Shown: piece by piece, positions 8,834 to 46,133 of the stretch
Layout: every line of letters starts with the position of its first letter
Position numbering within the stretch: position 1 is the stretch's first letter
Assembly (NCBI GenBank): GCA_001725415.1
Contig: MEGH01000016.1
Span: forward strand, 111,743 to 175,742
Reading direction: 5' to 3'
DNA: 64,000 nt
Source of the DNA: Pseudonocardia sp. SCN 73-27
Lineage (GTDB): Bacteria > Actinomycetota > Actinomycetes > Mycobacteriales > Pseudonocardiaceae
Position numbers and translations under genes: made by a program
Notes under the pieces: model-generated
Told to the model about the DNA's origin: nothing
What the model saw: only the letters and a program-made list of their open reading frames with translations
The model's database searches: none

Positions 8834-8862
8834 GACACCGACGCTACGCGCCTGTCGACGAA

Positions 8863-8882: not shown

Positions 8883-8891
8883 AACGACAAA

Positions 8892-12790: not shown

Positions 12791-12820
12791 TCCGACCTCC
12801 CCGCCGGCGACAGCCGACTT

Positions 12821-23092: not shown

Positions 23093-24723
23093 GCCAGAAG
23101 CCTAGTCAGCTTCCCGCGAAGCGCATCTCCGTTCTCGTCCTCGGCCGCGGCGGCGCGCAGGGCCGCCAGGGTGGTCGCGGCGTCGCGACGGCCCCGCAAC
23201 GCCCGGGCGGCGGCCATCAGCCGGGTGAAGCTCTCGCCGCCGTGGGCCCAGGTCGCGCCGTAGCCCTTGAGCACCTCCCGGCACTCGACGATCTCCGTGG
23301 CCAGCGCGGGGTCTGTCGCGGCGACGTCGATCGCGAGCGTGGTCCAGTCGTCGATCGCGGCCTGCTCGTGGACGAACCGCAGCGACCGGGGCCGCAGCGG
23401 CCGCAGCCGTGCCATCGTCGAGAGCAGTGTGAACCCGGTGACCGACGTCGTGTCGAGGACGATGCCGTCACGCGCCACCCGGTCGACGGCGCGGGTGAAG
23501 GCACGGGAGCGGCGCAGGAGCCGGCCCAGCCGGTAGGGCATGGTGTCGGTGATCTCCTCGGCCTGTGGGTGCAGGTACTCGCGAACCTGGGTGAGCTGCG
23601 CCGGGGTCGCCGACGCCTCGGTGCGGACGCGGTCGAGGCGGCGCTGCCGGGTCTTCTGGTGGGCGACCTGGATGGTGTCCTGATAGCACATCCACAGCGC
23701 GAGCTGCCGGGCCGCGGCGCTGGTCAGGGCGGCCGCGCCGTCGCGGTCGGGGTCGGCGGCGGCGAACGCGCGGACCCGGCCGAGGTAGCGCCGGGCGTAG
23801 TCGACGTCCTGGTAGACGCCGGTGCGGACGAGCCCGTGCAGGACCGTCGACCGGGCCGCGGCCGGCAGGTCCGCGACCTGGCGGGCGAGCGGGCGCAGGT
23901 CCGGGCCGACGAGCGACTCCGGGTCGGTGGCGGCGACCGCGGTGCGCCGGGCCTCCTCGCGGTCCTTCTCGTCGGCGGGCGACGGCGGGCGGGGCCCGAT
24001 CGTGATCGCGACCGGGGCAGGCCGCCGGGGCGCGACGGTCTCGCGGGCGGCGTCGAACCCGCCGGCGAACGCCGTGAGGCTCGGCCCGACACCCTTGCCG
24101 GCGTCGCGGATCGCCCGCTCGAACTCCTCGCGTCCGAACGGCAGCGCGCCCGAGCCCGCGACGGCGCCGAGCAGCGCAGCGGAGACGACGCTGCGGTGTC
24201 GGGTGGCGATGGCGGCGAAGTCGGCGGCGACGAGCTGCTTCGCGGCGCGACCGGCGGCGGCGAGCAGTTCGGCGGAGTCGACGCGACCGTCGCCGGGATG
24301 CATCTTCTCGTCGATCGTGTAGACGCGGTTGGTCGACGCGATCAGCGTCGTGCGGTCCGGGGTGGCGAACCCGCGCTGCACGGCGCGACCGCACTCCATC
24401 AGCTCCGACGCGACGACGACGTCGACCTCCCCGGGCGCCGGGAACACCGACAGCACCGGCTCGGGGCGACCGGCTGCGCCGACGTCGGGCACCGGCGGGT
24501 ACAGCTCGGCGTAGTAGACGGTCGCGCCCGTCCGCTGCGCGACGCCGGCGACCGACGTCGTCTGCGCGTGGTAGCCCGCTGTTTCGGCGACCGCGACGAT
24601 CCAGTCGGCGAGGACGCCGCCGCCCTCCCCACCCATCGCCAGGATCGCGACGGTGATCGGGCGGGCCCCGGCGTACCAGGACGCCGTGCCGGTGGCGGCG
24701 GGTGCGGGCATGACGGTGGGCAT
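23089..24723 (-). CDS. Indolepyruvate ferredoxin oxidoreductase beta-like subunit with C-terminal extension
   Basis: A 544-residue protein from ATG 24723, overlapping the alpha-subunit stop by one base. Residues 20-230 form the gamma/beta pyruvate-ferredoxin-oxidoreductase domain: ILAMGGEGGGVLADWIVAVA, TSVAGVAQRTGATVYYAELY, VVVASELMECGRAVQRGF. Residues about 290-540 are a helical extension (WMCYQDTIQVAHQKTRQRRL, FTLLSTMARLRPLRP) as in the DUF6537-containing versions found in aerobes. Paired with the alpha subunit it would oxidise an aryl-2-oxo acid to an acyl-CoA, passing electrons to ferredoxin. Confidence 0.8.
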   Translation of the reverse strand: MPTVMPAPAATGTASWYAGARPITVAILAMGGEGGGVLADWIVAVAETAGYHAQTTSVAGVAQRTGATVYYAELYPPVPDVGAAGRPEPVLSVFPAPGEVDVVVASELMECGRAVQRGFATPDRTTLIASTNRVYTIDEKMHPGDGRVDSAELLAAAGRAAKQLVAADFAAIATRHRSVVSAALLGAVAGSGALPFGREEFERAIRDAGKGVGPSLTAFAGGFDAARETVAPRRPAPVAITIGPRPPSPADEKDREEARRTAVAATDPESLVGPDLRPLARQVADLPAAARSTVLHGLVRTGVYQDVDYARRYLGRVRAFAAADPDRDGAAALTSAAARQLALWMCYQDTIQVAHQKTRQRRLDRVRTEASATPAQLTQVREYLHPQAEEITDTMPYRLGRLLRRSRAFTRAVDRVARDGIVLDTTSVTGFTLLSTMARLRPLRPRSLRFVHEQAAIDDWTTLAIDVAATDPALATEIVECREVLKGYGATWAHGGESFTRLMAAARALRGRRDAATTLAALRAAAAEDENGDALRGKLTRLLA

Positions 24724-28514: not shown

Positions 28515-29288
28515 TCAGTCCTCGACGAGCGCCAGCACCCGTGCCGGGCTGCCCGACCCGCCGACGATCGGCAGCGGGCACACCACGAGCACAGCGCCCG
28601 TCGCCGGGAGCTGGTCGAGGTTGCGCAGGCTGGTCAGGCCCCACTTGCCGGCACCCATCAGCTCCGAGTGGCACGGGAACGCCGGGTCGAGGCCCGGCGC
28701 CTGGCCGGCGTCGGTCCCGACAGTCTCGACGCCGAAGCCGGAGATCGGGGTCTCGCGGGCGAGCCAGCGCGCGCAGTCCGGCGCGACACCCGGGGTGTGC
28801 GGACCGTTCTCGTCGGCGTTGGCGAACGCCGCGGCATCCTCACCGCGTGACGACCAGCCCGTGCGGTGGAGCAGCCAGCCGCCCTCGGGCAGCGGGCCGT
28901 GCTCGGCCTGCCAGGCCTCGACGTCGGCGATCTGCAGCAGGAAGTCGGCGTCCTTCTCCGCCTCGGCCGTCTTGTCGATGACGACGACGGGCGCTACGAG
29001 CGTCGACAGCGGCGCCCGGGAGACGTCGAGACCGTCGCGGCCGGTGACCCAGTGGTTCGGGGCGTCGAGGTGGGTGCCGGTGTGCTCGCCGGTGTGGATG
29101 TCGTTCCAGTACCAGGCCGGGCCCTTCTCGTCGTAGCGCGACAGCTCCTCGAGCCGGAACCGGCTGGTGTTGGCGAAGGGCGGTGGCAGCTCGAGGATCG
29201 GGGTGGACTCCTGCAGCGGCGTCGTGAGGTCGACGACGCGGACCGCGCCGGAGCGGGCGGCGTCGAGCAGGGCGGACAGCACGGGCAC
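28515..29288 (-). CDS. Cyclase family protein (kynurenine-formamidase-like metal hydrolase)
   Basis: A 257-residue protein. GTG 29288 has AGGAGG seven bases upstream; a start further up is less likely. The defining metal motif is HTGEHTGTHLDAPNHW, with DLTTPLQESTPILELPPPF before it and GFGVETVGTDAGQAPGLDP after it. The family includes kynurenine formamidase and ring-opening hydrolases that use Zn or Mn. Being first in the operon with an aryl-2-oxo-acid oxidoreductase, it could open a lactone or amide from an aromatic or alicyclic ring; this is inference. Confidence 0.85.
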   Translation of the reverse strand: MPVLSALLDAARSGAVRVVDLTTPLQESTPILELPPPFANTSRFRLEELSRYDEKGPAWYWNDIHTGEHTGTHLDAPNHWVTGRDGLDVSRAPLSTLVAPVVVIDKTAEAEKDADFLLQIADVEAWQAEHGPLPEGGWLLHRTGWSSRGEDAAAFANADENGPHTPGVAPDCARWLARETPISGFGVETVGTDAGQAPGLDPAFPCHSELMGAGKWGLTSLRNLDQLPATGAVLVVCPLPIVGGSGSPARVLALVED

Positions 29289-29400
29289 GGGAGACCTCCT
29301 GGGCGGCTCGGGACCTGTCCGAGGATCGGGCACGGTCCGGTCGGCAGCCATCCGCTGCGCGCGGACGCTGTCCGGAAAGCGCCCGGCCGGCGGCGTACGG

Positions 29401-30499: not shown

Positions 30500-31282
30500 A
30501 TGTCGCCCGCCCTGCACGGCCGCACGGTCCTGGTGACCGGCGGATCGACCCTCGTCGGACACGGTGTCGTCCGTGCCCTGCACGCCGCCGGCGCGACCGT
30601 CGCCGTCGTCGACATCGACGCCGAGGGCGCCAAGCCGCTGCTCGACGAGCTCGGCGAGCGGATCTCGTTCCACCGCACCGACATCACCGACGACGCCGCA
30701 CTGGCCGCCACCGTCGCGACGATCGCCGCGAACGGCCTGCACGGCCTGGTCAACCTGGCCTGCAGCTACCTCGACGAGGGCGCCGACACCGGCCGCGCCG
30801 ACTGGCTGCACGCCCTCGACGTCAACGTCGTGTCCGCCGTCCAGGCCACCCGTGCCGCCCGCCCGCACCTCGCCGCGACGCGCGGTGCCGTCGTCAACCT
30901 GACGTCGATCTCGTCGAAGGTCGCCCAGACCGGACGCTGGGTCTACCCGGCCTCGAAGGCGGCACTCGTGCAGGTCACACGCTCGATGGCGATGGACCTC
31001 GCCACCGACGGCATCCGCGTCAACTCCGTCAGCCCGGGCTGGACCTGGTCGAGGATCATGGACGATCTCAGCCACGGCGACCGCGCCAAGACCGACCGGG
31101 TCGCGGCGCCGTTCCACCTCACCGGGCGCGTCGGCGACCCGGACGAGGTCGGCGAGGTCGTCGCCTTCCTCCTCTCCCCCGCCGCGTCGGCGGTCACCGG
31201 CGCCGACTGGGCCGTCGACGGCGGCTACTCCGCCATGGGCCCCGAACAGGCCGTCCCCGCCATCCCACAGCTCGCCGACTGA
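30500..31282 (+). CDS. Short-chain dehydrogenase/reductase
   Basis: A 260-residue classical SDR from ATG 30500. The cofactor motif is VTGGSTLVGHG (TGxxxGxG), the Asp of VVDIDAEG after beta-2 points to NAD(H), and the catalytic set is Ser in NLTSISSKV and Y149-x3-K153 in VYPASKAALV. The usual NNAG motif is altered to NLAC (85-88). C-terminal GRVGDPDEVGEVVAFLLSPA is typical. It probably oxidises a secondary alcohol to the ketone used by the flavin monooxygenases that follow; seventeen bases separate it from the next gene. Confidence 0.9.
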   Translation: MSPALHGRTVLVTGGSTLVGHGVVRALHAAGATVAVVDIDAEGAKPLLDELGERISFHRTDITDDAALAATVATIAANGLHGLVNLACSYLDEGADTGRADWLHALDVNVVSAVQATRAARPHLAATRGAVVNLTSISSKVAQTGRWVYPASKAALVQVTRSMAMDLATDGIRVNSVSPGWTWSRIMDDLSHGDRAKTDRVAAPFHLTGRVGDPDEVGEVVAFLLSPAASAVTGADWAVDGGYSAMGPEQAVPAIPQLAD

Positions 31283-31298
31283 CCACGAGGAACCCGTC

Positions 31299-32813: not shown

Positions 32814-32909
32814 CGCCGCGCACACCGGCTGACGACAGCGCGGAACGGATCGTCGCACCAGGCCCGTCTCACGAGAATCTCCTGGTCACCGACTCGAGGA
32901 GGACTCGAC

Positions 32910-34041: not shown

Positions 34042-35013
34042 GTGGACACGATGAGGTGCACACCCCCGCCCCTGCCGCTCACCGCGGCCGACCGCAGCGA
34101 CCGGCTCGACGAGCTGCGCGACAGCGTGCAGGAGGTGACGATCGCCCACGAGGTGCGGCGCCGCCGCGGACAGCCCGACGGCGCGGCCTCACGGGCGAGC
34201 GTCGGCGCGGTCAACGTCGTGTTCGTGCAGTACGGGGCCGACGTCGTCGTCGACGCCTTCCCGACGCGCAGCCGGTTCACCGCCACCGTCCCGCTCGGCC
34301 CCATGGGCGTGACCATGGGGCCCGCGGTGCGGGACGCGACGATGCGGGCGGGGTTCGCGCTGTCGGCCGACGAGCACACCGTCATGCGGCCCGACCCGCT
34401 GGCCGGGGCGCTCGTCCTCGCCACCGGCATGGGACGGCTGGAGGAGCAGCTCGTCACGATGACGGGAACCCCCGCCCGGACGCGGTTGCGCTTCCTCGAC
34501 CCCGACCAGCCCGCCGCCGCCCCGCCGGGTCTGCTCGACGCCACCTGGCGGCTGGTGTGCCGGACGATCGTCGAGTCGGGCGGGCGGCCGGCGCCGATCG
34601 TCGAACGCACCCTCGAGGAGCAGCTGCTCACCGCGTTGCTGCTGTCGTTGCCGCACACCGGGACCGCCGACCTGCTCGCGGCCCCGCCGGTCGCGCCCAC
34701 CACCGCCGTCGACCGGGCGATGGAGTGGATCGAAGACCATCTCGACGAGCCCCTGACGGTGTCCGACGTCGCCGCGGCCGCGGGGCTGAGCACGCGGCAG
34801 CTGCAGGAGGTGTTCCGCAGGCAGCGCGGCGTGAGCCCGATGGAGGTGGTGCGCGACCTGCGGCTCACCCGGGCGCACGCGCAGCTGCGCGGGTCGACCT
34901 CGGTCGGCGACGTCGCGCACGCCTGCGGGTTCGGCCACCTCAGCCGGTTCGCGAGCGCCTACCGGGACCGATTCGGCGAGCTGCCGTCGGAGACGCTGCA
35001 GCGGCGCCGGTGA
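34042..35013 (+). CDS. AraC family transcriptional regulator
   Basis: A 323-residue regulator from GTG 34042 (ATG 34051 is an alternative; no clear ribosome site for either). The N-domain is cupin-like, and the C-terminal HTH reads EPLTVSDVAAAAGLSTRQLQ, EVFRRQRGVSPMEVVRDLRL, and AHACGFGHLSRFASAYRDRF. The start is 34 bases after the LLM gene, and its stop overlaps the start of the PaaX gene (GTGA). It probably governs part of the 28-34 kb cluster. Confidence 0.86.
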   Translation: MDTMRCTPPPLPLTAADRSDRLDELRDSVQEVTIAHEVRRRRGQPDGAASRASVGAVNVVFVQYGADVVVDAFPTRSRFTATVPLGPMGVTMGPAVRDATMRAGFALSADEHTVMRPDPLAGALVLATGMGRLEEQLVTMTGTPARTRLRFLDPDQPAAAPPGLLDATWRLVCRTIVESGGRPAPIVERTLEEQLLTALLLSLPHTGTADLLAAPPVAPTTAVDRAMEWIEDHLDEPLTVSDVAAAAGLSTRQLQEVFRRQRGVSPMEVVRDLRLTRAHAQLRGSTSVGDVAHACGFGHLSRFASAYRDRFGELPSETLQRRR

Positions 35014-35906
35014 AGGGCGCCAGTACTGTTGTGGCCGTGGCGATCGAGGACGAGGACGGCGGAGGTGCTGCAGGCCAGCCCGGCCGGCTGATCCTCACCG
35101 TGTACGGCCTCTACGCGCGCGAACGCGGCGGCTGGCTGCCGATCGCCGGGCTCGTACGGCTGCTCGGCGAGGTCGGGATCAACGTGCAGGCCGTGCGGTC
35201 GGCGATCCACCGGCTCAAGCGCCGCGGCCTGGTCGACGCGCAGCGCCGCGCCGACGCCGCCGGGTACGCCCTCTCCGACGACGCCCATGGCCTGCTCGCC
35301 GAGGGCGACGTCCGCATCTTCGGCCACACCCGCGGCGCCGCCGACGACGGCTGGCTGCTCGTCGTGTTCTCGGTGCCCGACACCGAGCGTGCCAAGCGCT
35401 ACCAGCTGCGTTCGACGCTGACCCGGCTCGGTTTCGGCACCGTCTCCCCCGGCACCTGGATCGCGCCGCGGCACCTGGAGGCCGCGACGGTCGAGACGCT
35501 GGAGCGGGCCGGGCTGGCCGGGTTCACGCAGGTCTTCGCCGGTCCGCACGTCGCGGGTGGCGACCTGGCCGGGCTCGTCGCGTCCTGGTGGGACCTCGAC
35601 GGGCTCCAGGAGCTCTACGCCGACTTCCTCGACCGCTTCGAGCCGGTCGGCGCCAGGTGGCTGTCCGGGGACGACGGGCCCGGCGACGACGCCCGCGCCT
35701 TCGTCGACCTCGTCGACATGCTGACGGCGTGGCGGCGGCTGCCCTACGCCGACCCGGGCCTGCCGCTGGAGCTGCTGCCCGCGGGGTGGAACGGCGAGCG
35801 CGCCCACGAGTTGTTCGCGGCGCTCTCGGCCCGGCTGCGCGAGCCCGCCGCCCGCCACGTCGAGGCCCTGCTCGGGCCGGCCGAGACGCTCCCGGCCGCC
35901 GGCTGA
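35010..35906 (+). CDS. PaaX family transcriptional regulator
   Basis: A 298-residue protein if started at GTG 35010 (four-base overlap with AraC); GTG 35037 would give 289. The N-terminal winged HTH is RLILTVYGLYARERGGWLPI and VQAVRSAIHRLKRRGLVDAQ; the C-terminal domain has WLLVVFSVPDTERAKRYQLR and GTVSPGTWIAPRH. PaaX-type repressors usually respond to aryl-CoA esters such as phenylacetyl-CoA. That matches the ligases and 2-oxo-acid oxidoreductase in the window, both of which yield aryl-CoAs. Which operator it binds is unknown. Confidence 0.88.
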   Translation: MKGASTVVAVAIEDEDGGGAAGQPGRLILTVYGLYARERGGWLPIAGLVRLLGEVGINVQAVRSAIHRLKRRGLVDAQRRADAAGYALSDDAHGLLAEGDVRIFGHTRGAADDGWLLVVFSVPDTERAKRYQLRSTLTRLGFGTVSPGTWIAPRHLEAATVETLERAGLAGFTQVFAGPHVAGGDLAGLVASWWDLDGLQELYADFLDRFEPVGARWLSGDDGPGDDARAFVDLVDMLTAWRRLPYADPGLPLELLPAGWNGERAHELFAALSARLREPAARHVEALLGPAETLPAAG

Positions 35907-36669: not shown

Positions 36670-37644
36670 CTATTCACGGAGTGCGGTCCGCCCTGTCCGG
36701 CGAACGCGACCCGGCCGCATCGCGCGGGCCCCGCATCCCTGTGAGCGGCGCAGGTCATCCGACGGCGAGCGACCGAAGGCGCGGCGGTACTCGGCGGCGA
36801 AGCGGCCGAGGTTGCCGAAGCCCCAGCGGGTCGCGACCTCGACGACCGTCTCCCCGGTGCCTTCCAGGAGGTCGGCGCGGGCGCGGTCCAGGCGGACCCG
36901 GCGCAGGTGCGCGATGGGGCTGGTGCCGAGCCGGTCGCGGAAGTGGTCCTGCAGCGTCCGGGGCGCGACGCCGGCCGCGTCGGCGATGTCGATCAGCCCG
37001 ATCCCGTTGCCCGCGTTCGCCTCCACGTACTCGCAGGCGATGCGCACGACGTCGGCGGCCGTGGCGCGTGGGCGGTCCGGGGTCTGCGTCACGCCGAACG
37101 AGTCGAGCGCGGCGACGGCCGCGAGCTGCGCGACCGACGCACCGAACGGGGTGTGCAGCAGCCCGTGCGGGACGACGTCGGCGAGCAGCAGCCGGGTCAC
37201 CGCGTCCCAGGGGCGCGGGTCGCCCGCCGTGCCGGTGCGGACGTCGCCCGCCCGCCCGGAGGCGGCCCCGGCGCGGGCGACGAGCGTCGACGGGAGCTTG
37301 ATCGTCAGCAGCCGGCAGCCCGGGCCGAAACCGAGGTCGTGGGCGGTGCCGGCGTCCAGCGCGACGGTCCGGCCCTGGGCGACTGTCGTCTCCCCCACCG
37401 TGAGTGCTCCCGCGAGGGGGCGGGAGAACAGCACGAAGTCGCCGAACGGCTCCGGCCGCACCCGGACCGCGCCCTCGCCGTAGGACAGGGAGAACACGCC
37501 GAGGTCGTCGGAGCCCGCCTCGGCGTGGCGGGCGTGGAACCCACCGCCGGTGGGCGCCAGCGCGTGCGGGCAGTAGGAGCGGGCGACCTGAGCACGTGCG
37601 AGGTCGACGTCACGGGTGTCGAGCCGCGTCTCCCAACCCTGCAC
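36670..37644 (-). CDS. AraC family transcriptional regulator
   Basis: A 324-residue regulator from GTG 37644. The N-domain is cupin-like (GVFSLSYGEGAVRVRPEPFG, DFVLFSRPLAGALTVGE). The double HTH has GIGLIDIADAAGVAPRTLQD, HFRDRLGTSPIAHLRRVRLD and VATRWGFGNLGRFAAEYRRA. An Arg-rich tail follows. It lies 36 bases upstream of the hydrolase gene on the same strand and downstream of the leftward aryl-CoA operon, either of which it may control. Confidence 0.88.
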   Translation of the reverse strand: MQGWETRLDTRDVDLARAQVARSYCPHALAPTGGGFHARHAEAGSDDLGVFSLSYGEGAVRVRPEPFGDFVLFSRPLAGALTVGETTVAQGRTVALDAGTAHDLGFGPGCRLLTIKLPSTLVARAGAASGRAGDVRTGTAGDPRPWDAVTRLLLADVVPHGLLHTPFGASVAQLAAVAALDSFGVTQTPDRPRATAADVVRIACEYVEANAGNGIGLIDIADAAGVAPRTLQDHFRDRLGTSPIAHLRRVRLDRARADLLEGTGETVVEVATRWGFGNLGRFAAEYRRAFGRSPSDDLRRSQGCGARAMRPGRVRRTGRTALRE

Positions 37645-37697: not shown

Positions 37698-37958
37698 TCA
37701 GGGGTCGACGTCGCACGTCCGGCTCGGGTGCCCGGCAGCCGGCGCGTCGGCGGCCCGCTCCTCGTCGTCGGTCGCGACGGAGGTCGACGTCGCCTTCGTG
37801 CAGGAGCGGGTCACCTCGCATGTCTCGATCGTGTAGTCGTCGAGGATCGCCGTGCGTCCCAACCTCTCCACCGCGCGAGAGGTGGTCGTACCAGGCCGTG
37901 ATCGACTCCTCGTCCTCGACGTACGCGATCGCGAGCTCCCGGGGGGCACGATGTGCAC
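37698..37958 (-). pseudogene. Frameshifted unknown gene at the end of the aryl-CoA operon
   Basis: Sixteen bases after the CoA-ligase stop, GTG 37958 reads HIVPP; after one base lost in the run of C near 37940 the sequence continues RELAIAYVEDEESITAWYDH, and after a further shift near 37865 VERLGRTAILDDYTIETCEV and on to TGA 37698-37700. Codon bias in each part fits coding DNA. Rejoined it would be about 87 residues. I do not recognise the family. Sequencing error in the C/G runs is possible; otherwise it is a decayed last gene of the operon. Confidence 0.4.
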
Positions 37959-37973
37959 CTCACGATCGTCAGG

Positions 37974-39614
37974 TCATGCCGTCGCGGGTGTGCGCGGGGT
38001 CGGGCGGGCGGTCGTGACGTCGCGCCCCGCGGGCGGCGCCGACGCCCGCTCCCGCAGCGCCACCCGCAGGAGTTTGCCGGAGGCGTTGCGCGGCAACGTG
38101 TCCACGAACTCGACCCGGCGCGGGTACTTGTAGGGCGCGCCGACGGCCTTGACGTGGTCCTGCAGCGCCTTGGCGGTCGCCGCGCCGGGCGCGACCCCGT
38201 CGCGGAGCACCACGAACGCGGTGACGACCGCGCCGCGTTCCGGGTCGGGCGCGCCGACGACGCCGGACTCGACGACGTCGGGATGGGTGGCCAGCAGCTC
38301 CTCGACCTCGGGGCCGGCGATGTTGTAGCCGGAGGAGACGATCATGTCGTCGGCGCGGGCGACGTGGTGGAAGAAGCCGTCGGCGTCGCGGACGTAGACG
38401 TCACCGGTGAGGTTCCAGCCGTCGCGGACGTAGTCGCGCTGGCGGGGGTCGTCGAGGTAGCGGCAGCCGGTCGGGCCCTTCACCGCCAGCAGGCCGGGGG
38501 TGCCGTCGGGGACCGGGCGGCCGTCGACGTCGTGCACCTCGGCCCGGAAGCCGGGCACGACACGGCCGGTGGCGCCGGGGCGGGCGTCGTCGTCGGCCGC
38601 GGAGATGAACACGTGCAGCATCTCGGTGCCGCCGATGCCGTCGATCAGCGGGCGGCCGGCGGTCTCGCGGTAGTGGACGGCGACCTCGGCGGGCAGCGCC
38701 TCGCCCGCCGACACCGCGCGCCGCACACCGGCGAGCAGGTGCCCGTCGCCGGCGTCGAGGATCGCGCGGTAGGCGGTCGGCGCGGTGAACAGGACGCTCA
38801 CGCCGCGGTCGGCGGTGATCCGGGCCAGCTCGGCGGGGGTCGCCCTCTCGAGGAGCAGCACCGATGCGCCGGCGTGCAGCGGGAACACCAGCAGCCCGCC
38901 GAGCCCGAAGGTGAACGCGAGCGGCGGGGTGCCGGCGAACAGGTCGTCGGGCCGGGGCTTGAGCACGTGCGCGGAGAAGGTGTCGGCGATGGCGAGGACG
39001 TCGCGGTGGACGTGCATCGTGGCCTTGGGCCGGCCGGTGGTGCCGGAGGTGAAGGCGAGCAGGGCGACGTCGTCGGCGGCGGTGGCGACGTCGGGGAACG
39101 TCGCCGGGTGCGCGGCGCAGCGGGCCTGCAGGTCGGTCCCGAACGCCACCGCGGGCACGTCGGGCGGGAGCTCGTCGAGGAAACGCTCGTCGCACAGCGC
39201 GACGGTGGGCCTGGCCGTCGCGACGATCTTGTCGAGCTCGTGGCGGCGCAGCAGCGGCATCGTGGCGACGGCGACCGCCCCGGCCTTGAGGACGGCGAGC
39301 CAGCAGGCCGCGAGCCACGGGGTGTTGGGGCCGCGGAGCAGGACGCGGTTGCCGGGGACGACGCCGAGGTCGGCGGTGAGGACGTGCGCGATGCGGTTGG
39401 CGCGGGTCAGGACGTCGCCGTAGGTCCAGGTCTGGTCGGGTGAGAGCAGACACGGGCGGTCGGCGCCGAACCGGGCGATCGTGTCGTCGAGCAGCGCGGT
39501 CGCGGCGTTGAGCTGTCTCGGGTACTGCAGCTGGGGAAGGTCGAACACGAACTCGGGCTGCTGGTCGGCCGGTGGCAACCCGTCGCGGCAGAACGTGTCG
39601 ACGTGGGCGGTCAT
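37974..39614 (-). CDS. Aryl-CoA ligase (benzoate/2-aminobenzoate-CoA ligase type)
   Basis: A 546-residue acyl-adenylate enzyme from ATG 39614, overlapping the nitrilase stop (ATGA). It has the phosphate loop LAFTSGTTGRPKATMHVHRD, the acceptor motif IDGIGGTEMLHVFISA, GWNLTGDVYVRDADG, MIVSSGYNIAGPEVEELLAT, and the catalytic Lys in PRNASGKLLRV. The IGGTEMLHVFISA block is the one I associate with benzoate-type CoA ligases. Beside the bifunctional hydroxylase it would make the aryl-CoA substrate, benzoyl-, salicylyl- or aminobenzoyl-CoA. Confidence 0.88.
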   Translation of the reverse strand: MTAHVDTFCRDGLPPADQQPEFVFDLPQLQYPRQLNAATALLDDTIARFGADRPCLLSPDQTWTYGDVLTRANRIAHVLTADLGVVPGNRVLLRGPNTPWLAACWLAVLKAGAVAVATMPLLRRHELDKIVATARPTVALCDERFLDELPPDVPAVAFGTDLQARCAAHPATFPDVATAADDVALLAFTSGTTGRPKATMHVHRDVLAIADTFSAHVLKPRPDDLFAGTPPLAFTFGLGGLLVFPLHAGASVLLLERATPAELARITADRGVSVLFTAPTAYRAILDAGDGHLLAGVRRAVSAGEALPAEVAVHYRETAGRPLIDGIGGTEMLHVFISAADDDARPGATGRVVPGFRAEVHDVDGRPVPDGTPGLLAVKGPTGCRYLDDPRQRDYVRDGWNLTGDVYVRDADGFFHHVARADDMIVSSGYNIAGPEVEELLATHPDVVESGVVGAPDPERGAVVTAFVVLRDGVAPGAATAKALQDHVKAVGAPYKYPRRVEFVDTLPRNASGKLLRVALRERASAPPAGRDVTTARPTPRTPATA

Positions 39615-40618
39615 CGCTCCACCTCCGCGTCGTCGTCGGTCACGACAGCGGGAGGCCTGCCCGTCACGACGAGCGGAACTCGCGGAGTCGCGTCGAGGTG
39701 CAGTGAGAGCACGTCGAACCGGTTGTAGTGACCGATGATGTCGTGCATCTGCTTGGCCTGGATACTGCGCGCGAGATCGATCTCCGCGTAGACGATGCCC
39801 TCGTCGTCGATCAGCGGTTCGACGACCGGGCGTCCGTCGGGCCCGAAGATGCCGGACAGGGCGTTGCGGGGCCGGGACAGCTGCTTGCGGACGCTCTCGT
39901 CGTCGCCCGCGACGGTGTCGACGATCTCCTCGGACACCACCGACGTCGACACCACCGAGAAGACCTTGCCCTCGAAGGCGTGCGCGGCGGTGCGGATGGC
40001 GATGGCGTCGGCCATGTCGTAGTCCTCGGGCGCGACGGGCAGCGCGATGTAGGACGCGACGTGCACCTGCTCGCCCTGGGCCAGCAGCGCGAACCGGGCG
40101 AGGGTGTTGGTGTTCTCCCCGCAGGCGAGCACGCCGAGCTTCCCGACCGGCGTCTCGTGCACGACGAGCGAGCTGCCGTCGCCGCCGGTCCAGGTGAGCT
40201 TCTCCGCCCACGTCGGGACGAGCTTGCGGTGCACACCGATCAGCTCGCCGGTGTGGGAGATCGTGAGCATGGTGTTGTAGATGACGCCCATGCTGTGCGC
40301 GCCGCGCTCGTTCACCCCGATGACGACGGTGACGCCGTGGCGGCGGGCCGCGTCGCGCAGGGTGTCGACCTCGGGGCCCGGGACGTCGATCGCGTTGCGG
40401 TACAGGCGTTCGAACCACGGCGACCCCTGCACCGGGTTCATCGTCCAGTTCCAGTACGGGTACCCGGGCACGAACGCCTCGGGGAAGGCGACGAGCGTCG
40501 CGCCGTTCCCGGCCGCCTCGGCGATCAGGTCGGCGGCCTTGGCGACGGTGGCCGCCGCGTCGAGGTAGACGGGTGCGGTCTGGACGGCGGCGGCGGTGAA
40601 ACGCGGCAGCTCCAGCAT
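39611..40618 (-). CDS. Nitrilase (carbon-nitrogen hydrolase)
   Basis: A 335-residue nitrilase-superfamily enzyme from ATG 40618. The catalytic triad is visible: E47 in LVAFPEAFVPGYPYW, K132 in GVHRKLVPTWAEKL and C166 in LGVLACGENTNTLARF. The CGENTNTLARF context and length match true nitrilases and cyanide hydratases rather than amidases. It would hydrolyse R-CN to the carboxylate and ammonia. Six bases downstream of the bifunctional hydroxylase and overlapping the ligase, it makes a nitrile the likely entry compound of this operon. Confidence 0.9.
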   Translation of the reverse strand: MLELPRFTAAAVQTAPVYLDAAATVAKAADLIAEAAGNGATLVAFPEAFVPGYPYWNWTMNPVQGSPWFERLYRNAIDVPGPEVDTLRDAARRHGVTVVIGVNERGAHSMGVIYNTMLTISHTGELIGVHRKLVPTWAEKLTWTGGDGSSLVVHETPVGKLGVLACGENTNTLARFALLAQGEQVHVASYIALPVAPEDYDMADAIAIRTAAHAFEGKVFSVVSTSVVSEEIVDTVAGDDESVRKQLSRPRNALSGIFGPDGRPVVEPLIDDEGIVYAEIDLARSIQAKQMHDIIGHYNRFDVLSLHLDATPRVPLVVTGRPPAVVTDDDAEVER

Positions 40619-40623
40619 GGCGG

Positions 40624-42870
40624 TCAGCCCTTCGTGGAGGTGAGCAGCGGACGCCAGCGCCGGTGGACCGGCACGGGCTCGGGATCGGTGAGCGTGAGCC
40701 GCGGCGGGACGCGACGGGCGGTGGGCGGCGGAGCGGCCCCGGCGCGCAGGTGGGCCGGCCATGCCACCTCGTCCCAGCCGAGCGCGACGGCGGCGTGCAG
40801 GGCCCAGGCGGGGTCGTGCAGCATCGCCCGGCCGACGGCGACGAGATCGGCGCGGCCGGCGAGCACGATGGAGTTGGCGTCGTCGGCGGTGGAAATGCCG
40901 CCGACCGCGACGACGGGGACACCGGCGTCGTGACGGATCCGTTCGGCGAGCGGGGTCTGGTAGCTACGGCCGTAGTTGGGCCGCTGGTGGGCGACGACCT
41001 CACCGGACGACACGTCGATCACATCGGCGCCGTGCGCGGCCAGTGCCCGGCTGATCTCGACGGCGTCGGTGACGGTCTGCCCGCCGGGTGCGTGGTCGAC
41101 CGCGGAGATGCGGACGAGCAGCGGGCCCGCCCACACCGCGCGGACGGCGTCGAGGACCCGCAGCGGGAACCGCAGCCGGTCGGCGACGTCGCCCGGGTTG
41201 GTGAGCGGCGACAGGTAGGTCGAGAGCAGGTGGCCGTGGCCGGCGTGCAGTTCGAGCACGTCGAACCCGGCGTCGGCGGCGCGGCGGGCGGCGTCGGTGA
41301 ACGCGGCTGCCACGGCGTCCTCGTCAACCGGGCCCGGCGCGGGGTCGCCGTCGCGGTACGGAACGGGTGTCGGTGCGACGGGTGCGACGCCGCGGCGGCC
41401 GGCGTGGGTGAGCTGGACGCCGATCCGGGCGTCGGACGTCGCGTGGATGCGGTCGGTGATCGCGCGCCACGCGGCGACGTGCGCCTCGGACCACAGGCCG
41501 CTGCTCTCCGCGCAGGCGCGACCGTCGGCGGAGACGGCGGTGCCGCCGGTGAGCACGAGCCCTGCTCCCCCCACGGCCGCGGCGGACAGCATCAGCATCT
41601 CGGCGTCGCCGGGCACCCCGTCGCGGGCGGTGTCGACGGTGACCGGTGCAGCGACGATCCTGTTGGGCAGCACCAGCTCTCCCACCGAGAAGGGCTGGAA
41701 CAGGGGCGGCGCGCCGGGCGCGAAGTGGGTGCGGACCCGGGTGGCGTAGTCGGGGTCGCGGACCGCGAGGTTGTCGAAGGTGACGCGGCGGCTGCGGGTG
41801 AGCAGGTTGAACGCGAACTGCTGCGGGTCGAGCCCGGTCACGTGGTCGACGTCCTCGAACCATTCCAGGCTGGCCTGGGCGGCCCGCTGGGTGGACTCGA
41901 CGACGGGCCGGCGCTCGGCCTCGTACGCGGCGAGCGCGGTGGGGACGTCGGCGTGCCGGCGCAGCGCCGCGGCCAGCGCCAGCGAGTCCTCCATCGCGAG
42001 CTTGGTGCCCGAGCCGATGGAGAAGTGCGCGGTGTGCGCGGCGTCGCCCAGCAACACGAGGTTGCCGTCGTGCCAGCGCCGGTTGCGGACGGTGGTGAAC
42101 CGCAGCCACTTCGAGTTGTTCGCGACGAGCGCGGCGCCGCCCAGCTCGTCACCGAACAGCTCGGCGATCGCGGCGATGCTCGCCTCGTCGTTGACCCCGG
42201 GCGGGAGCGAGTCGGCGTCGACGCCGTCGAAACCCAGTGCGCGCCAGGTGTTTTCCGACGTCTCGACGATGAACGTCGACCGCTGCTCGGAGAACGGGTA
42301 TGCGTGCACCATCAGCGCGCCGTGCGGGGTCTGCTTCGCGACGAAGGTGAACGCGTCGAGCACCCGGTCGGTGCCCAGCCACATGTAGCGGGCGCCGCGG
42401 ACGTCGAGGTCGGGGCCGAACACGTCGGCGTGCGCGGTGCGGATCGCCGAGCGGGCGCCGTCGGCGGCGACGACGAGGTCGTAGGTCGCGCGCAGCTGAT
42501 CGACGGGCGGGGCGACGGTGCGGAACCGCAGGTCGACCCCCACCTCCGTGCAGCGGTTCGCGAGCAGCTCCAGCAGGACGCGGCGGTTGATCGCGGAGAA
42601 CCCGTGGCCGCCGGAGGTGACCGTCTCGCCGCGGTGCACGACGTCGATGTCCGACCAGCGCGCGAACCGGGCCGAGACCGACGCGAACAGGACGGGGTCG
42701 GCCTGCTCGAGGCCGTCGAGGGTCTCGTCGGAGAAGACGACACCGAAGCCGAACGTGTCGTCGACGGCGTTGCGCTCGAACACGACGACCTCGCGGGCCG
42801 GGTCGAGCTGCTTCGCCAGCGCGGCCAGGTAGAGGCCGCCCGGACCCCCACCCACGACGGCGATCCTCAT
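40624..42870 (-). CDS. Bifunctional FAD monooxygenase / OYE-like reductase acting on aryl-CoA
   Basis: A 748-residue two-domain protein from ATG 42870. Residues 1-375 are a salicylate-hydroxylase-like monooxygenase: GGGPGG (7-12), DDTFGFGVVFSDET, and the second FAD motif GDAAH (275-279). Residues about 390-730 are an Old-Yellow-Enzyme-type reductase: FQPFSVGELVLPNRIVAAPV, QLTHAGRRG, ELHAGHGHLLSTYLSPLTN, VPVVAVGGIST. This layout is that of 2-aminobenzoyl-CoA monooxygenase/reductase and bifunctional salicylyl-CoA 5-hydroxylases. With the gentisate-type dioxygenase opposite, 5-hydroxylation of salicylyl-CoA is favoured. Confidence 0.9.
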   Translation of the reverse strand: MRIAVVGGGPGGLYLAALAKQLDPAREVVVFERNAVDDTFGFGVVFSDETLDGLEQADPVLFASVSARFARWSDIDVVHRGETVTSGGHGFSAINRRVLLELLANRCTEVGVDLRFRTVAPPVDQLRATYDLVVAADGARSAIRTAHADVFGPDLDVRGARYMWLGTDRVLDAFTFVAKQTPHGALMVHAYPFSEQRSTFIVETSENTWRALGFDGVDADSLPPGVNDEASIAAIAELFGDELGGAALVANNSKWLRFTTVRNRRWHDGNLVLLGDAAHTAHFSIGSGTKLAMEDSLALAAALRRHADVPTALAAYEAERRPVVESTQRAAQASLEWFEDVDHVTGLDPQQFAFNLLTRSRRVTFDNLAVRDPDYATRVRTHFAPGAPPLFQPFSVGELVLPNRIVAAPVTVDTARDGVPGDAEMLMLSAAAVGGAGLVLTGGTAVSADGRACAESSGLWSEAHVAAWRAITDRIHATSDARIGVQLTHAGRRGVAPVAPTPVPYRDGDPAPGPVDEDAVAAAFTDAARRAADAGFDVLELHAGHGHLLSTYLSPLTNPGDVADRLRFPLRVLDAVRAVWAGPLLVRISAVDHAPGGQTVTDAVEISRALAAHGADVIDVSSGEVVAHQRPNYGRSYQTPLAERIRHDAGVPVVAVGGISTADDANSIVLAGRADLVAVGRAMLHDPAWALHAAVALGWDEVAWPAHLRAGAAPPPTARRVPPRLTLTDPEPVPVHRRWRPLLTSTKG

Positions 42871-42973
42871 ATTCCTCACTCCTGACGCTGGTTGAGTGGA
42901 CGCAACGTTAGCATCTGTTGCTGCCGTCGAAAAGACGCTATGTTGAGTCGGCGACGAGAGACGAGGAGGCGTG
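42871..42973. promoter_or_regulatory. Divergent promoter region of the two gentisate-type operons
   Basis: These 103 bases separate the leftward hydroxylase operon from the rightward dioxygenase operon. They hold an inverted pair GCAAC (42902-42906) and GTTGC (42917-42921) with ten bases between, and a direct repeat GTTGAGT (42891-42897 and 42942-42948). The A/T content is higher than in the surroundings (AACGTTAGCATC, GAAAAGACGCTATG). A shared regulator here would switch both operons together; the candidates in the window are the PaaX or AraC proteins. Confidence 0.5.
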
Positions 42974-44086
42974 ATGACCGACCTGAGTGACGACGTCCTC
43001 GGGCGTGCCCGGGTGCACGACACCGCCGAGCTGGAGGCCTACTACCGGCGACTCGAGGACCTCGAGGCCGGCGCCCTGTGGAAGATCGCCAACAAGATCG
43101 AGCCCTGGTACCCGCAGCCGCGCTCGCGCCCGATGCTGTGGCGCTACGCCGACCTGCGCCCGCTCGTGCTGGAGGCCTTGGGCCTGGTCAGCGGTGACGA
43201 CGCCGGCCGTCGCGTCGTCGCGCTCTACAACCCCGACCTGCGCGACATCGCGGCCACCTGCGGCCTGCTCTACACCGGACTGCAGGTCATGGCGCCCGGC
43301 GAGTCGATGACCGCGCACCGCCACCAGGCGTCGGCACTACGGTTCGTGCTGGAGGGCGAGGGCGCCTGGACGATCGTCGACGGGCAGAAGCTCAAGGTCG
43401 GCCCGCGCGACTTCGCGATCACCCCGAACTGGACCTGGCACGAGCACGGCAACGAGGGGCTCGAGTCCGAGGGTGCCGTGATCTGGCAGGACGGGCTCGA
43501 CATCCCGCTGGTCAACGCCCTGGACGCGCCGTTCTACGAGGTGCACCCCGACGTCTACCAGAAGCAGGACGGCGTCACGAACTCCTCGGTCCTCACCTAC
43601 GGCGCCGGGCAGCTGCGGCCCGTCGGCGACCCGTGGGACAAGCGCTACTCACCGCTGACGGCCTACCCGTGGGAGCCGACGTACGAGGCGCTGCAGAACG
43701 CGGCGCAGGCCTCCGACGGCTCGCCCTACGACGGCATCATCATGGAGTACTCCAACCCGCTGACCGGCGGTTCCGTGATGCCGACGATGAGCGCGCACAT
43801 GCAGATGCTGCGTCCCGGTGAGCGGACGCTGGCGCACCGCCAGGTCGGCTCGCAGGTCTACACCGCAGCCAAGGGCTCGGGCCACACGATCATCAACGGT
43901 GTCCGCTACGACTGGACCGAGGGCGACATCTTCGTCATCCCGTCGTGGGCCTGGCACGAGCACGCCAACGCCAGCACGTCCGACGACGCGTGCCTGTTCT
44001 CGTTCACCGACTTCCCGGTGATGCGCTCGCTCGGCTTCTACCGCGAAGAGGCCTACGCCGACAACGACGGCCACCAGGCCGTCTGA
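42974..44086 (+). CDS. Gentisate 1,2-dioxygenase-like cupin (ring-cleaving)
   Basis: A 370-residue bicupin. ATG 42974 has GAGGAGG four bases before it; the GTG three bases earlier is too close. The N-terminal cupin carries the Fe(II) ligands in SMTAHRHQASALRF (H115, H117) and NWTWHEHGN (H156 or H158); the C-terminal cupin repeats the pattern as TLAHRQVGSQVY and SWAWHEHANAS. Family members cleave gentisate, salicylate or 1-hydroxy-2-naphthoate. With a FAH-type hydrolase next and a 5-hydroxylase opposite, gentisate cleavage to maleylpyruvate is most likely. Confidence 0.88.
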   Translation: MTDLSDDVLGRARVHDTAELEAYYRRLEDLEAGALWKIANKIEPWYPQPRSRPMLWRYADLRPLVLEALGLVSGDDAGRRVVALYNPDLRDIAATCGLLYTGLQVMAPGESMTAHRHQASALRFVLEGEGAWTIVDGQKLKVGPRDFAITPNWTWHEHGNEGLESEGAVIWQDGLDIPLVNALDAPFYEVHPDVYQKQDGVTNSSVLTYGAGQLRPVGDPWDKRYSPLTAYPWEPTYEALQNAAQASDGSPYDGIIMEYSNPLTGGSVMPTMSAHMQMLRPGERTLAHRQVGSQVYTAAKGSGHTIINGVRYDWTEGDIFVIPSWAWHEHANASTSDDACLFSFTDFPVMRSLGFYREEAYADNDGHQAV

Positions 44087-44099
44087 AAGGGAACCTCCG

Positions 44100-44936
44100 A
44101 TGCTCCTGGTCAGCTTCTCCGTCGAAGGCGGCCCGGCCCTGCCCGGTGCCATGGTCGGCGACGAGGTCGTGGACCTGTCCGCGCACGTCACCGACCTGCG
44201 CGGGCTGTTCGGCACAGCGCTCCCGCCGCTGGACGGCCCTCGCGTCCCCCGCGACTCCGTGCGGCTGCACGCCCCGTTCCGGCCGGGGAAGATCGTCGGG
44301 GTCGGGCTCAACTACGTCGAGCACGTCGACGAGTCGGCCCGCGCCCTCGACACCCACAAGGAGCTGCCGACGCGGCCGGTGCTGTTCGGAAAGCCGGCGA
44401 CCGCCGTCGTCGGACCCGGGGAGCCGATCCTGCACGACGGCAACCTCACCGAGCAGCTCGACTGGGAGTGCGAGCTGGCCGTCGTCATCGGGCGGGCCGC
44501 GCGGAAGGTGTCGCGCGAGGCCGCGCTCGCGCACGTGTTCGGATACTCGATCATCAACGACATCTCCGCGCGCGACCAGCGCCGCTCCGGGCAGTGGTTC
44601 TTCTCCAAGGGCCAGGACTCCTACGCGCCCTTCGGCCCCGCCGTCCGCACCGCCGACGAGGTCCCCGACCCGCAGACCCTCGCCCTCGGGCTCAAGGTCA
44701 ACGACGAGGTGAAGCAGAAGGGCAACACCGCCCACATGCTGTTCACCGTCGCCGAACTGATCGCCGACATCTCCTCCGGCATGACCTTGGAGCCCGGCGA
44801 CGTCATTGCCACCGGCTCGCCCCAGGGCGTCGGAGCGGCGCAGAACCCGCCACAGTTCCTGCGCCCCGGCGACGTCGTCGAGGCGACCGTCGAGGGCATC
44901 GGGACGTTGCGCAACCCGGTGGTCGACGCCCGATGA
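44100..44936 (+). CDS. Fumarylacetoacetate hydrolase family protein (acylpyruvate hydrolase)
   Basis: A 278-residue FAH-domain protein from ATG 44100. The metal and catalytic blocks are KIVGVGLNYVEHVDE, LDWECELAVVIGRAARK (Glu ligands), GYSIINDISARDQRRSGQWF, and IATGSPQGVGAAQNPP with the C-terminal Gly loop. It would split maleylpyruvate or fumarylpyruvate into pyruvate and maleate or fumarate. It lies 13 bases after the dioxygenase gene and overlaps the isomerase gene by four bases. Confidence 0.9.
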   Translation: MLLVSFSVEGGPALPGAMVGDEVVDLSAHVTDLRGLFGTALPPLDGPRVPRDSVRLHAPFRPGKIVGVGLNYVEHVDESARALDTHKELPTRPVLFGKPATAVVGPGEPILHDGNLTEQLDWECELAVVIGRAARKVSREAALAHVFGYSIINDISARDQRRSGQWFFSKGQDSYAPFGPAVRTADEVPDPQTLALGLKVNDEVKQKGNTAHMLFTVAELIADISSGMTLEPGDVIATGSPQGVGAAQNPPQFLRPGDVVEATVEGIGTLRNPVVDAR

Positions 44937-45718
44937 CCCGCTCGTTCCGGATCGGCCAGATCGTCCCCAGCTCCAACGTCACGATGGAGACCGAGATCCC
45001 GGCGCTGCTGCGGGCGCGCGAGACCGTGGCGCCGGAGCGGTTCACGTTCCACTCGAGCCGGATGCGCATGACCCGGGTGACCGCCGACGAGCTGGCCGCG
45101 ATGGACGGCGAGTCCGACCGCTGCGCCGTCGAGCTGTCCGACGCCCGCGTCGACGTCCTCGGCTACGCCTGCCTCGTCGCGATCATGAGCATGGGGCCGG
45201 GCTACCACCGCGAGTCGCAACGCCGGCTGCACGCGCGCACGGTCGACAACGGCGGGCCTGCACCCGTCGTGACCAGCGCGGGGGCGCTCGTCGACGGCCT
45301 GCGGGTGCTCGGCGCGCGGCGGATCGTGCTCATCGCGCCCTACATGCCGGAGCTGACCCGCACGGTCGTCGACTACATCGAGGCCGAGGGTGTCGACGTG
45401 CTCGACCACCGTGCGCTCGGCGTGCCCGGCAACCTGGACGTCGCCGCACTCGACCCGCGCGGGTTGATCGCGCACGCGGCGGAGCTGGACCGGCCCGACG
45501 CCGACGCCGTCGTGTTGTCGGCGTGCGTCCAGATGCCGTCGCTCGACGTGATCGACGAGGTCCAGCAGCTGCTGGGCAAACCGGTGCTGTCGGCGGCCGT
45601 CGCGACGACGCACCGGATGCTGCGCGCGCTCGACCTGCCCGCCGTCGCACCCCTCGGTGGCGCGCTGCTCGGCGGCGACCACGCGCTGGCCGACCCGCCC
45701 GCTGCGGTCGCCCGATGA
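44933..45718 (+). CDS. Maleate isomerase paralogue (Asp/Glu racemase superfamily)
   Basis: A 261-residue protein from ATG 44933 (ATGA overlap). It aligns along its length with the maleate isomerase at 9599-10357: RIGQIVPSSNVTMETEIPAL, FHSSRMRMTRVTADEL, GYACLVAIM with C80 and VVLSACVQMPSLDVI with C198. Both catalytic cysteines are kept. Differences include an insert after residue 95. It could isomerise maleate to fumarate after direct hydrolysis of maleylpyruvate; arylmalonate-decarboxylase-like activity is a less likely alternative. Confidence 0.82.
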   Translation: MTRSFRIGQIVPSSNVTMETEIPALLRARETVAPERFTFHSSRMRMTRVTADELAAMDGESDRCAVELSDARVDVLGYACLVAIMSMGPGYHRESQRRLHARTVDNGGPAPVVTSAGALVDGLRVLGARRIVLIAPYMPELTRTVVDYIEAEGVDVLDHRALGVPGNLDVAALDPRGLIAHAAELDRPDADAVVLSACVQMPSLDVIDEVQQLLGKPVLSAAVATTHRMLRALDLPAVAPLGGALLGGDHALADPPAAVAR

Positions 45719-45731
45719 TGCGAGTGCCGTC

Positions 45732-46133
45732 GTGACCGCCGCCGCAACCCGGCCCACCGTCACGATCCGGCGGACCGTCGAGTGGTCCGACACCGACGCG
45801 TCCGGGCACTACTACAACGGCGTCGTGCTGCGCTGGGTCGAGGCGGCCGAGGCCGAGCTGCTCGGACGGCTCGGCCTCGCCGGGCTCTTCGGGCGCATCC
45901 CCCGGGTGCGCTACGAGGCCGACTTCCGAGCCCGGCTGTGGTTCGGCGACGAGGTCGAGATCGACATGACGATCGGGCACGTCGGCACCACGTCGATGCG
46001 CTACGACTTCGAGGTCCGCTCCGGAACCACGGTCGCCGCGGCCGGGTCGACGACGGTCGTCAACGCGACGCCCGACGCCCCGGCCGCGACCCCGTGGCCA
46101 GACGACGTGCGGACGGCGCTGGCACCCGGCTGA
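45732..46133 (+). CDS. Acyl-CoA thioesterase (4-hydroxybenzoyl-CoA-thioesterase-like hotdog)
   Basis: A 133-residue hotdog-fold protein, GTG 45732. It carries the signature VEWSDTDASGHYYNGVVLRW, where the Asp in SDTDASGH is the catalytic residue, then FRARLWFGDEVEIDMTIGHV. As last gene of the dioxygenase operon, it would release the free aromatic acid (gentisate) from its CoA ester so that the dioxygenase can act. This fills the step between the CoA-level hydroxylase and the ring cleavage. Confidence 0.86.
   Translation: MTAAATRPTVTIRRTVEWSDTDASGHYYNGVVLRWVEAAEAELLGRLGLAGLFGRIPRVRYEADFRARLWFGDEVEIDMTIGHVGTTSMRYDFEVRSGTTVAAAGSTTVVNATPDAPAATPWPDDVRTALAPG

Follow-up and report, generated by a model that had tools for sequence, protein, structure and literature searches.

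The window analysed here is a stretch of 64,000 nucleotides from Pseudonocardia sp. SCN 73-27 (contig MEGH01000016.1). At positions 37698..46133 it carries two divergent operons in which a nitrilase-family gene stands together with the genes of an aryl-coenzyme A (CoA) ligase, a two-domain hydroxylase and a gentisate-type dioxygenase. The question raised by this locus is what a nitrilase does in such a set and at which step it acts. We propose that the two operons probably encode an aerobic catabolism of anthranilate via 5-hydroxyanthranilate, in which the nitrilase would free the nitrogen after the ring has been opened. This proposal is drawn from gene content, linkage, homology and residue patterns; each reaction assigned below, the order of the nitrilase and the hydrolase that follows the dioxygenase, and the nature of the nitrilase substrate (amide or nitrile) are predictions from them.

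Organization of the two operons and the proposed pathway

All seven genes are real and are placed as an earlier note on this DNA had them. Each is an open reading frame whose family is recognisable by profile or homology searches, and the start codons of the two operons are opposed across a 103-bp gap at 42871..42973, the divergent promoter region. On the reverse strand are the two-domain hydroxylase (40624..42870, 748 aa; NF006101, E 7.5e-272), which consists of a flavin adenine dinucleotide (FAD) monooxygenase domain (PF01494) and an old yellow enzyme (OYE) domain (PF00724), the nitrilase-family C-N hydrolase (39611..40618, 335 aa; PF00795, E 6e-45) and the aryl-CoA ligase (37974..39614). 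No gene was assigned at 37698-37973. On the forward strand are the bicupin gentisate-type 1,2-dioxygenase (42974..44086; PDB 3bu7, E 1.5e-152), a hydrolase of the fumarylacetoacetate hydrolase (FAH) family (44100..44936; PF01557, E 3.6e-71), a maleate isomerase (44933..45718; PDB 4fq7, E 2e-96) and a 4HBT_2 (hotdog) thioesterase (about 45735..46133, start uncertain; PF13279, E 9e-11). The nitrilase and ligase genes overlap by 4 bases, as do the FAH and maleate isomerase genes. The nitrilase triad E47/K132/C166 is present where the earlier note placed it. This gene set and its counterparts in other genomes are called the block below.

In the proposed pathway, anthranilate would come either from tryptophan, through KynA and KynU (genes elsewhere in the genome), or from isatin, through the isatin hydrolase and IorAB of the window. 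The ligase, a predicted anthranilate-CoA ligase, would form 2-aminobenzoyl-CoA, and the FAD half of the hydroxylase, a predicted 2-aminobenzoyl-CoA 5-hydroxylase, would add a 5-hydroxyl group to give 5-hydroxyanthraniloyl-CoA. The changed OYE half would leave the ring aromatic, unlike the known 2-aminobenzoyl-CoA monooxygenase/reductase, which reduces the ring. The thioesterase would then free 5-hydroxyanthranilate, and the bicupin enzyme, as a predicted 5-hydroxyanthranilate 1,2-dioxygenase, would cut it between C1 and C2 in the manner of gentisate dioxygenase. Since C2 bears an amino and not a hydroxyl group, the C2 end would leave as a carboxamide (maleamylpyruvate), or as a nitrile by elimination from an iminolactone. 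If the amino carbon becomes a carboxamide, a C-N hydrolase would be needed before maleate is reached. The nitrilase would release ammonia from the cleavage product before or after cleavage by the FAH-family enzyme (a predicted maleylpyruvate or maleamylpyruvate hydrolase), these two steps would yield pyruvate and maleate, and the maleate isomerase would convert maleate to fumarate.

The ligase and the input of the pathway

Several lines favour anthranilate over salicylate or a nitrile as the best reading of the input. The window ligase shares 59.5% identity, across 96% of its length, with the pAL1 ligase of Arthrobacter sp. Rue61a, whose gene ARUE_113p00220 gave anthranilate-CoA ligase activity when expressed in Escherichia coli (PMC3534580); the gene part of the published primer begins at L182:8986, the annotated start of ARUE_113p00220. 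The window hydroxylase is 52.6% identical to the protein encoded next to this ligase, which was proposed as a 2-aminobenzoyl-CoA monooxygenase/reductase (PMC3534580). Related hydroxylases outside the block have RidA nearby in 23 of 24 cases and a match to a ligase, enoyl-CoA hydratase or acyl-CoA dehydrogenase also in 23 of 24, and matches to nitrilase or dioxygenase are absent from the stretches examined at all 24 loci. RidA is likewise present in 14 of 15 related-hydroxylase loci. Within the 64-kb window, queries with RidA and enoyl-CoA hydratase gave no match, and the sole acyl-CoA dehydrogenase match lies at 47480-48322 (34%). A ligase 62% identical to that of the window was also seen on a plasmid of Streptomyces sp. 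NBC_00388 (L183), together with anthranilate synthase and paaABCD genes; that cluster is perhaps biosynthetic and uses anthraniloyl-CoA.

The earlier note had a nitrile, for example 2-hydroxybenzonitrile, converted to salicylate, which would be activated, 5-hydroxylated and cut as gentisate. The nitrilase triad agrees with such a route, and the best family of the hydroxylase, NF006101, carries the name salicylyl-CoA 5-hydroxylase/oxidoreductase. The window protein, with 904 bits, is under the cut-off of that family (1078), however, and the pAL1 protein for which a 2-aminobenzoyl-CoA monooxygenase/reductase function was proposed bears the same name at NCBI. The homology of ligase and hydroxylase, the residue patterns, the isatin hydrolase and IorAB in the window and the kynurenine or isatin/IorAB neighbours elsewhere point to anthranilate and lend no support to salicylate and a nitrile as inputs. 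No nitrile-forming gene was recognised, and a search for aldoxime dehydratase gave no match in the genome itself but none in the control genomes either, so that this negative carries no weight. On context and homology, nitrile feed into salicylate was rejected, and we consider the route highly improbable. What stands of the earlier scheme, on homology and context, is hydroxylation at the 5-position at the CoA level, release by a thioesterase, gentisate-type cleavage and direct hydrolysis by the FAH-family enzyme followed by maleate isomerase.

The genome also holds a separate salicylate-type cluster on contig C5 (L181). Its FAD hydroxylase is single-domain, matching NF006101 over the monooxygenase part only, with no OYE domain; its dioxygenase and FAH-family protein are 38% and 41% identical to those of the window, and it further contains a mycothiol-type maleylpyruvate isomerase, a dihydroxybenzoate-type AMP ligase and a PaaX regulator. 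This cluster gave no match to either nitrilase query. The salicylyl-CoA/gentisate route is known, and the C5 set fits it; therefore, the window set is probably a related system with a different job.

The hydroxylase has a conserved oxygenase half and a changed reductase half

The 69 hydroxylases of the block, that of the window among them, were compared with 24 reductase-type enzymes; 15 of the 18 full-length block-free hydroxylases listed were included (all except G002, G014 and G024). The seven columns that best separate the two groups are all within the OYE domain. Of the columns invariant in the reductase-type enzymes, the block enzymes have lost 0 of the 82 that lie in the FAD domain and 14 of the 95 that lie in the OYE domain (Fisher p 1.1e-4). 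The OYE motif HxAHGY is mostly QxGHG(H/F) in the block enzymes and HAGHGH in the window, where further changes are Y413D, E442G, C445A and Q624E. The first OYE His is absent in 64 of 69 block enzymes, A544 is changed in 68 and E442 in 67. This pattern of a kept oxygenase and a changed reductase is as expected if the ring must remain aromatic, and a related enzyme is reported to form 5-hydroxyanthraniloyl-CoA under limiting NADH (PMC3534580).

In FastTree trees (without topology test), the block enzymes fall in separate lineages: Actinobacteria, a beta/gamma group beside the reductase-type L143, Novosphingobium beside L142/L144, and a partial Rhodospirillaceae sequence, which is probably the remainder of a gene severed at the contig end of a block locus. 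The Novosphingobium and Cupriavidus cases, which were checked once the pattern was known, conform to it. Among 398 Pseudomonadota genomes sampled evenly, 72 hydroxylase loci were examined. The OYE His is lost in all three loci linked to a dioxygenase, each of which carries a nitrilase, and kept in the other 69, some of them on short contigs (L226, L279 and others) (p 1.7e-5, uncorrected for kinship).

The nitrilase is linked to the ring-cleavage dioxygenase

Gene neighbours were counted at 88 nitrilase loci, namely the best 80 of at least 525 nitrilase relatives in genomes, a part rich in Streptomyces, and eight of the nine plasmid records with at least 60% identity; the ninth such record (H3) is outside the census, and its coordinates put its nitrilase and cupin side by side. 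A gentisate-type dioxygenase lies within 3053 bp of the nitrilase in 88 of 88 loci and within 300 bp in 70. An FAH-family gene is present in 86, both misses being at contig ends, a hydroxylase in 70, a thioesterase in 68 and a ligase in 67. Loci without ligase and hydroxylase still have the nitrilase beside the dioxygenase, so that the nitrilase fits a step after ring cleavage better than one before the ligase. Outgroup nitrilases (41-56% identical; 10 hand-picked from 52 plasmid records below 60%) were beside a dioxygenase in 0 of 10 cases, with no match to any block query except a 31% ligase match in L151; on the opposite strand of L151, at a distance of 2.7-4.4 kb, a small cupin and an FAH-family gene are annotated, both unmatched by the block queries.

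E47, K132 and C166 are kept in 90 of 90 aligned nitrilases, and the clade-specific residues include W137, T142, D199, M202, R249 and D261. The window nitrilase scores 242.6 bits for TIGR04048, whose cut-off is 502.6. When 396 Actinomycetota genomes were searched at E 1e-70, only the genome itself and one 50% relative gave a match; the clade is therefore uncommon.

The nitrilase might instead feed the top of the pathway, converting indole-3-acetonitrile to indole-3-acetate, or anthranilonitrile or anthranilamide to anthranilate. Isatin- and auxin-type genes are indeed found in the window and at several block loci. Among the 88 loci, however, IorA and IorB occur in 7 of the stretches examined and isatin hydrolase in 4, against 88 for the dioxygenase and 86 for FAH, and a second type of nitrilase, of the NIT4 type, likewise adjoins the dioxygenase. 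A role at the top of the pathway is thus very unlikely, and feed by indole-3-acetonitrile was rejected because the linkage is rare.

This second nitrilase was seen from the side of the dioxygenase. Among 17 plasmid records with a cupin of the clade, nine have a window-type nitrilase, five a NIT4-type nitrilase and two neither (H118 was unsampled). The NIT4-type nitrilase is near the cupin and FAH in all five plasmid blocks (4.9 kb from FAH in Tistrella, L186), and one was also found in the block L258 of the Pseudomonadota sample. The two that were compared are 35% identical to the window nitrilase, and one of them matches the NIT4 structure in PDB with E 5.5e-105. The stand-in by a NIT4-type enzyme supports, as a second line, the predicted nitrilase-type step. 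Canonical dioxygenase controls (two plasmids and the C5 cluster) gave 0 of 3 matches to nitrilase queries of either type; an isochorismatase-family gene is present at one control plasmid locus (L193).

Of the two forms that the cleavage product may take, the nitrile, if formed, would be the natural substrate of the nitrilase. It would arise by elimination from the iminolactone and would be related to 3-cyanoacrylate and hence to beta-cyanoalanine. A nitrile product would explain why nitrilases of the window type and of the NIT4 (beta-cyanoalanine) type were recruited beside one dioxygenase, and why no classical amidase was met there. We put it forward as a doubtful but conceivable variant of the pathway.

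Ring cleavage and the order of nitrogen release

The main rival to cleavage first is that gentisate is the substrate of ring cleavage, the nitrogen being lost before ring opening, from 5-hydroxyanthranilate to gentisate (an order attributed to Cain 1968), by the nitrilase-family or another enzyme with the rest of the pathway unchanged. The tight linkage of nitrilase and dioxygenase does not separate the two orders. A review gives the order 5-hydroxyanthranilate, gentisate, maleylpyruvate (PMC4539516), and in indole degradation gentisate is reported to occur as an intermediate (PMC6221969). In the block of Ruegeria pomeroyi, the cupin (L112:10045-11169) is identical to PDB 3bu7, which is deposited as gentisate 1,2-dioxygenase. 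On the other side, the chemistry of the nitrilase family, which acts on nitriles and amides, is ill-suited to hydrolysis of an aryl amine, and no gene for an aryl-amine deaminase was recognised in the blocks read. We regard deamination before cleavage as rather unlikely.

The window cupin has metal-type ligands at H115, H117 and H156/158 and a second set at H288 and H328/330, with H290 replaced by Q. Block cupins hold such ligands in both domains, whereas the aligned C-terminal domain of 2d40 is without them. The window cupin reaches 312 bits for TIGR02272 (gentisate 1,2-dioxygenase), whose cut-off is 442; this cut-off is also missed by the C5 homologue (254) and by the block cupins of R. pomeroyi (290) and Pseudomonas gessardii (334). 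Of 75 aligned maleate isomerases, all have C198 and 74 have C80, and both residues align with cysteines of 4fq7. Direct cleavage of unhydroxylated anthranilate was rejected, since the kynurenine-linked blocks L058, L103 and L110 have a maleate isomerase, which would imply a ring oxygenated at the 5-position. As a side observation, the gene of the 3bu7 cupin sits in a nitrilase/IorAB block, and its annotation as gentisate 1,2-dioxygenase may need a second look.

Several observations weigh against the pathway proposed here, in which cleavage comes first. 3bu7 is the only member of the cupin clade met in PDB, and given its deposit name, gentisate may be the true substrate of the clade. The Rue61a ligase possibly takes benzoate as well (PMC3534580), so ligase homology leaves the substrate unfixed. 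The first OYE His is kept in 5 of 69 block hydroxylases, including that of the window, where other residues of the motif are changed. When 13 block genomes or records were checked, seven had only a reductase-type full-length hydroxylase and one had none (the partial L135 was unclassed); blocks lacking a block-type hydroxylase must have another feed, perhaps 5-hydroxyindoles. The maleate isomerase was found in 75 of the 88 nitrilase loci and is absent from 13, some of which are at contig ends. No C-N hydrolase is near the cupin in two of the 17 plasmid records. Finally, both hydrolase types recruited are nitrilases and not classical amidases, so that the fit to an amide is only moderate. A cupin/FAH block with RidA and a thioesterase but no annotated C-N hydrolase nearby was seen on a plasmid of Sulfitobacter alexandrii (L188), where nitrogen may be removed by another means.

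Isatin, indole and kynurenine genes as upstream feeds

The isatin hydrolase and the IorA/IorB-like genes of the window, which the earlier note had left out, lie 9-15 kb away from the ligase gene. The isatin hydrolase, which would convert isatin to isatinate (28515..29351, reverse strand), matches PDB 5nmp with E 4e-82 and also 5nnb, 5nna and 4j0n. The IorA-like subunit of a 2-oxoacid:ferredoxin oxidoreductase (24723..26888, reverse strand; TIGR03336, E 2e-72, below cut-off) is 57-76% identical to IorA of L112, L141 and L138, and the IorB-like subunit (23089..24723, reverse strand) scores 663 bits for NF006179, above the cut-off of 348. Since isatinate is a 2-oxoacid, an Ior-type enzyme could yield 2-aminobenzoyl-CoA directly, which is the reaction predicted for the IorA-like protein. 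In Pseudonocardia asaccharolytica (L034), isatin hydrolase and IorAB are close to the block and a full-length ligase match is absent, as if IorAB made the ligase dispensable.

In the genome of the window, KynA and KynU are adjacent on contig C3. Other genomes show further neighbours of the block. Lrp, KynB, KynA, KynU and AroP genes stand beside a block lacking hydroxylase and ligase in Paraburkholderia rhynchosiae and P. gessardii, and KynA is near such blocks in Embleya, Streptomyces endocoffeicus and a Bradyrhizobiaceae metagenome-assembled genome (MAG). IorAB, thioesterase and MarR genes are beside such blocks on plasmids of Ruegeria, Shinella, Sagittula and Sulfitobacter, some of which also carry isatin-hydrolase-family genes, and at such a block a Rhodospirillaceae MAG has a short-chain dehydrogenase/reductase (SDR) and a styrene-monooxygenase-like flavoprotein, the latter named by eye. 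These kynurenine, IorAB, isatin and flavoprotein neighbourhoods can supply anthranilate or 5-hydroxyanthranilate. No feed genes were recognised at the ligase- and hydroxylase-free loci L091, L096, L097, L104 and L113.

Other genes of the window

Beyond the isatin hydrolase, at 30500-34007 on the forward strand, are an SDR, a flavin-containing monooxygenase-like flavoprotein and a luciferase-type monooxygenase in series, which are possibly an indole or auxin upper pathway. The SDR (30500..31282) shares 50% identity with the one next to the Rhodospirillaceae block and may catalyse an indole or isatin step. Two regulator genes lie between these genes and the operons. The PaaX-family regulator (35010..35906, forward strand; TIGR02277, E 7e-48, below cut-off) has matches in 52 of 88 block loci and in 13 of 15 related-hydroxylase loci (L160-L174). 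The AraC-family regulator (36670..37644, reverse strand) is weakly similar to AndR, the regulator of anthranilate 1,2-dioxygenase (NF041686, E 1e-33, 117 bits against a cut-off of 350). An alpha/beta hydrolase of the Abhydrolase_6 family is encoded at 35908-36633 on the reverse strand; homologues were seen beside the salicylate-type dioxygenase on contig C5 (44%; L181:11444-12178) and near the block in Skermania (76%; L077).

A second, partial set was observed at 8219-12805 on the reverse strand, with an AMP ligase, a maleate-isomerase-like gene (9599-10357), a TetR-like gene and a glyoxalase-family gene. It also contains remnants of an FAD hydroxylase; an open homologue of 506 aa in a close relative (L175, 2876-4396) aligns here in two pieces that cover just its first 242 residues.

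Relation to known systems

The pathway through 2-aminobenzoyl-CoA monooxygenase/reductase (Azoarcus evansii; Rue61a pAL1) shares with the window a ligase homologue, an FAD/OYE enzyme, PaaX and kynurenine or isatin feeds. In that pathway the OYE motif is intact, and RidA, enoyl-CoA hydratase or acyl-CoA dehydrogenase are near, whereas in the window block the motif is changed and the neighbours are the dioxygenase, FAH, nitrilase and maleate isomerase. The CoA-dependent salicylate degradation (Sdg) of Streptomyces sp. WA46 has a CoA ligase, 5-hydroxylation at the CoA level and a gentisate-type dioxygenase, as in the window. The salicylate-type C5 cluster of the same genome differs from the window in its single-domain hydroxylase, its mycothiol-type maleylpyruvate isomerase and the lack of a nitrilase match. 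The lower pathway of nicotinate and nicotine degradation shares the logic from maleamate or maleate to fumarate, and its maleate isomerase (PDB 4fq7) is a close homologue. In the nicotinate pathway, however, a pyridine ring is degraded, and the maleamate amidohydrolase is one of the cysteine hydrolases and has no relation to nitrilases.

The iad loci for auxin degradation share IorA/IorB-like genes and isatin chemistry, and their described end product is anthranilate (PMC9613470). A term search found the words nitrilase, cupin and gentisate absent from the main text of two auxin papers (PMC9613470, PMC11630574). Older work, as cited by reviews (PMC4539516, PMC6221969), comprises 5-hydroxyanthranilate in Nocardia opaca (Cain 1968) and an Alcaligenes route for indole and indole-3-acetic acid via isatin, anthranilate and gentisate (Claus and Kutzner 1983). 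In the available text of three reviews (PMC4539516, PMC6221969, PMC8383072), these routes have the same 5-hydroxyanthranilate and gentisate-type cleavage, but no genes are named and gentisate follows 5-hydroxyanthranilate; a 2018 review states that the enzyme of the gentisate branch was unreported and its genes unrevealed (PMC6221969). Nocardia opaca is an earlier name of Rhodococcus opacus; in strain ATCC 51881 of this species (L092) the block is present, with no ligase in the stretch examined. The earlier note did not know the combination of genes as a described system. We agree as far as the open-licence PMC literature goes, subscription papers being outside our reach: no account of the combination, and no paper combining nitrilase, kynurenine and gentisate, was found there.

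The block provides candidate genes for the 5-hydroxyanthranilate/gentisate branch in both Actinomycetota and Pseudomonadota; among its carriers is Rhodococcus opacus, the species in which, under its former name, the branch was reported in 1968. The natural function predicted for this clade of nitrilases is the release of nitrogen past ring opening. The hydroxylase gives a case in which the same half of an enzyme changes repeatedly when the downstream route changes, and the catabolism of tryptophan, indole and auxin would be tied to one ring-cleavage block.

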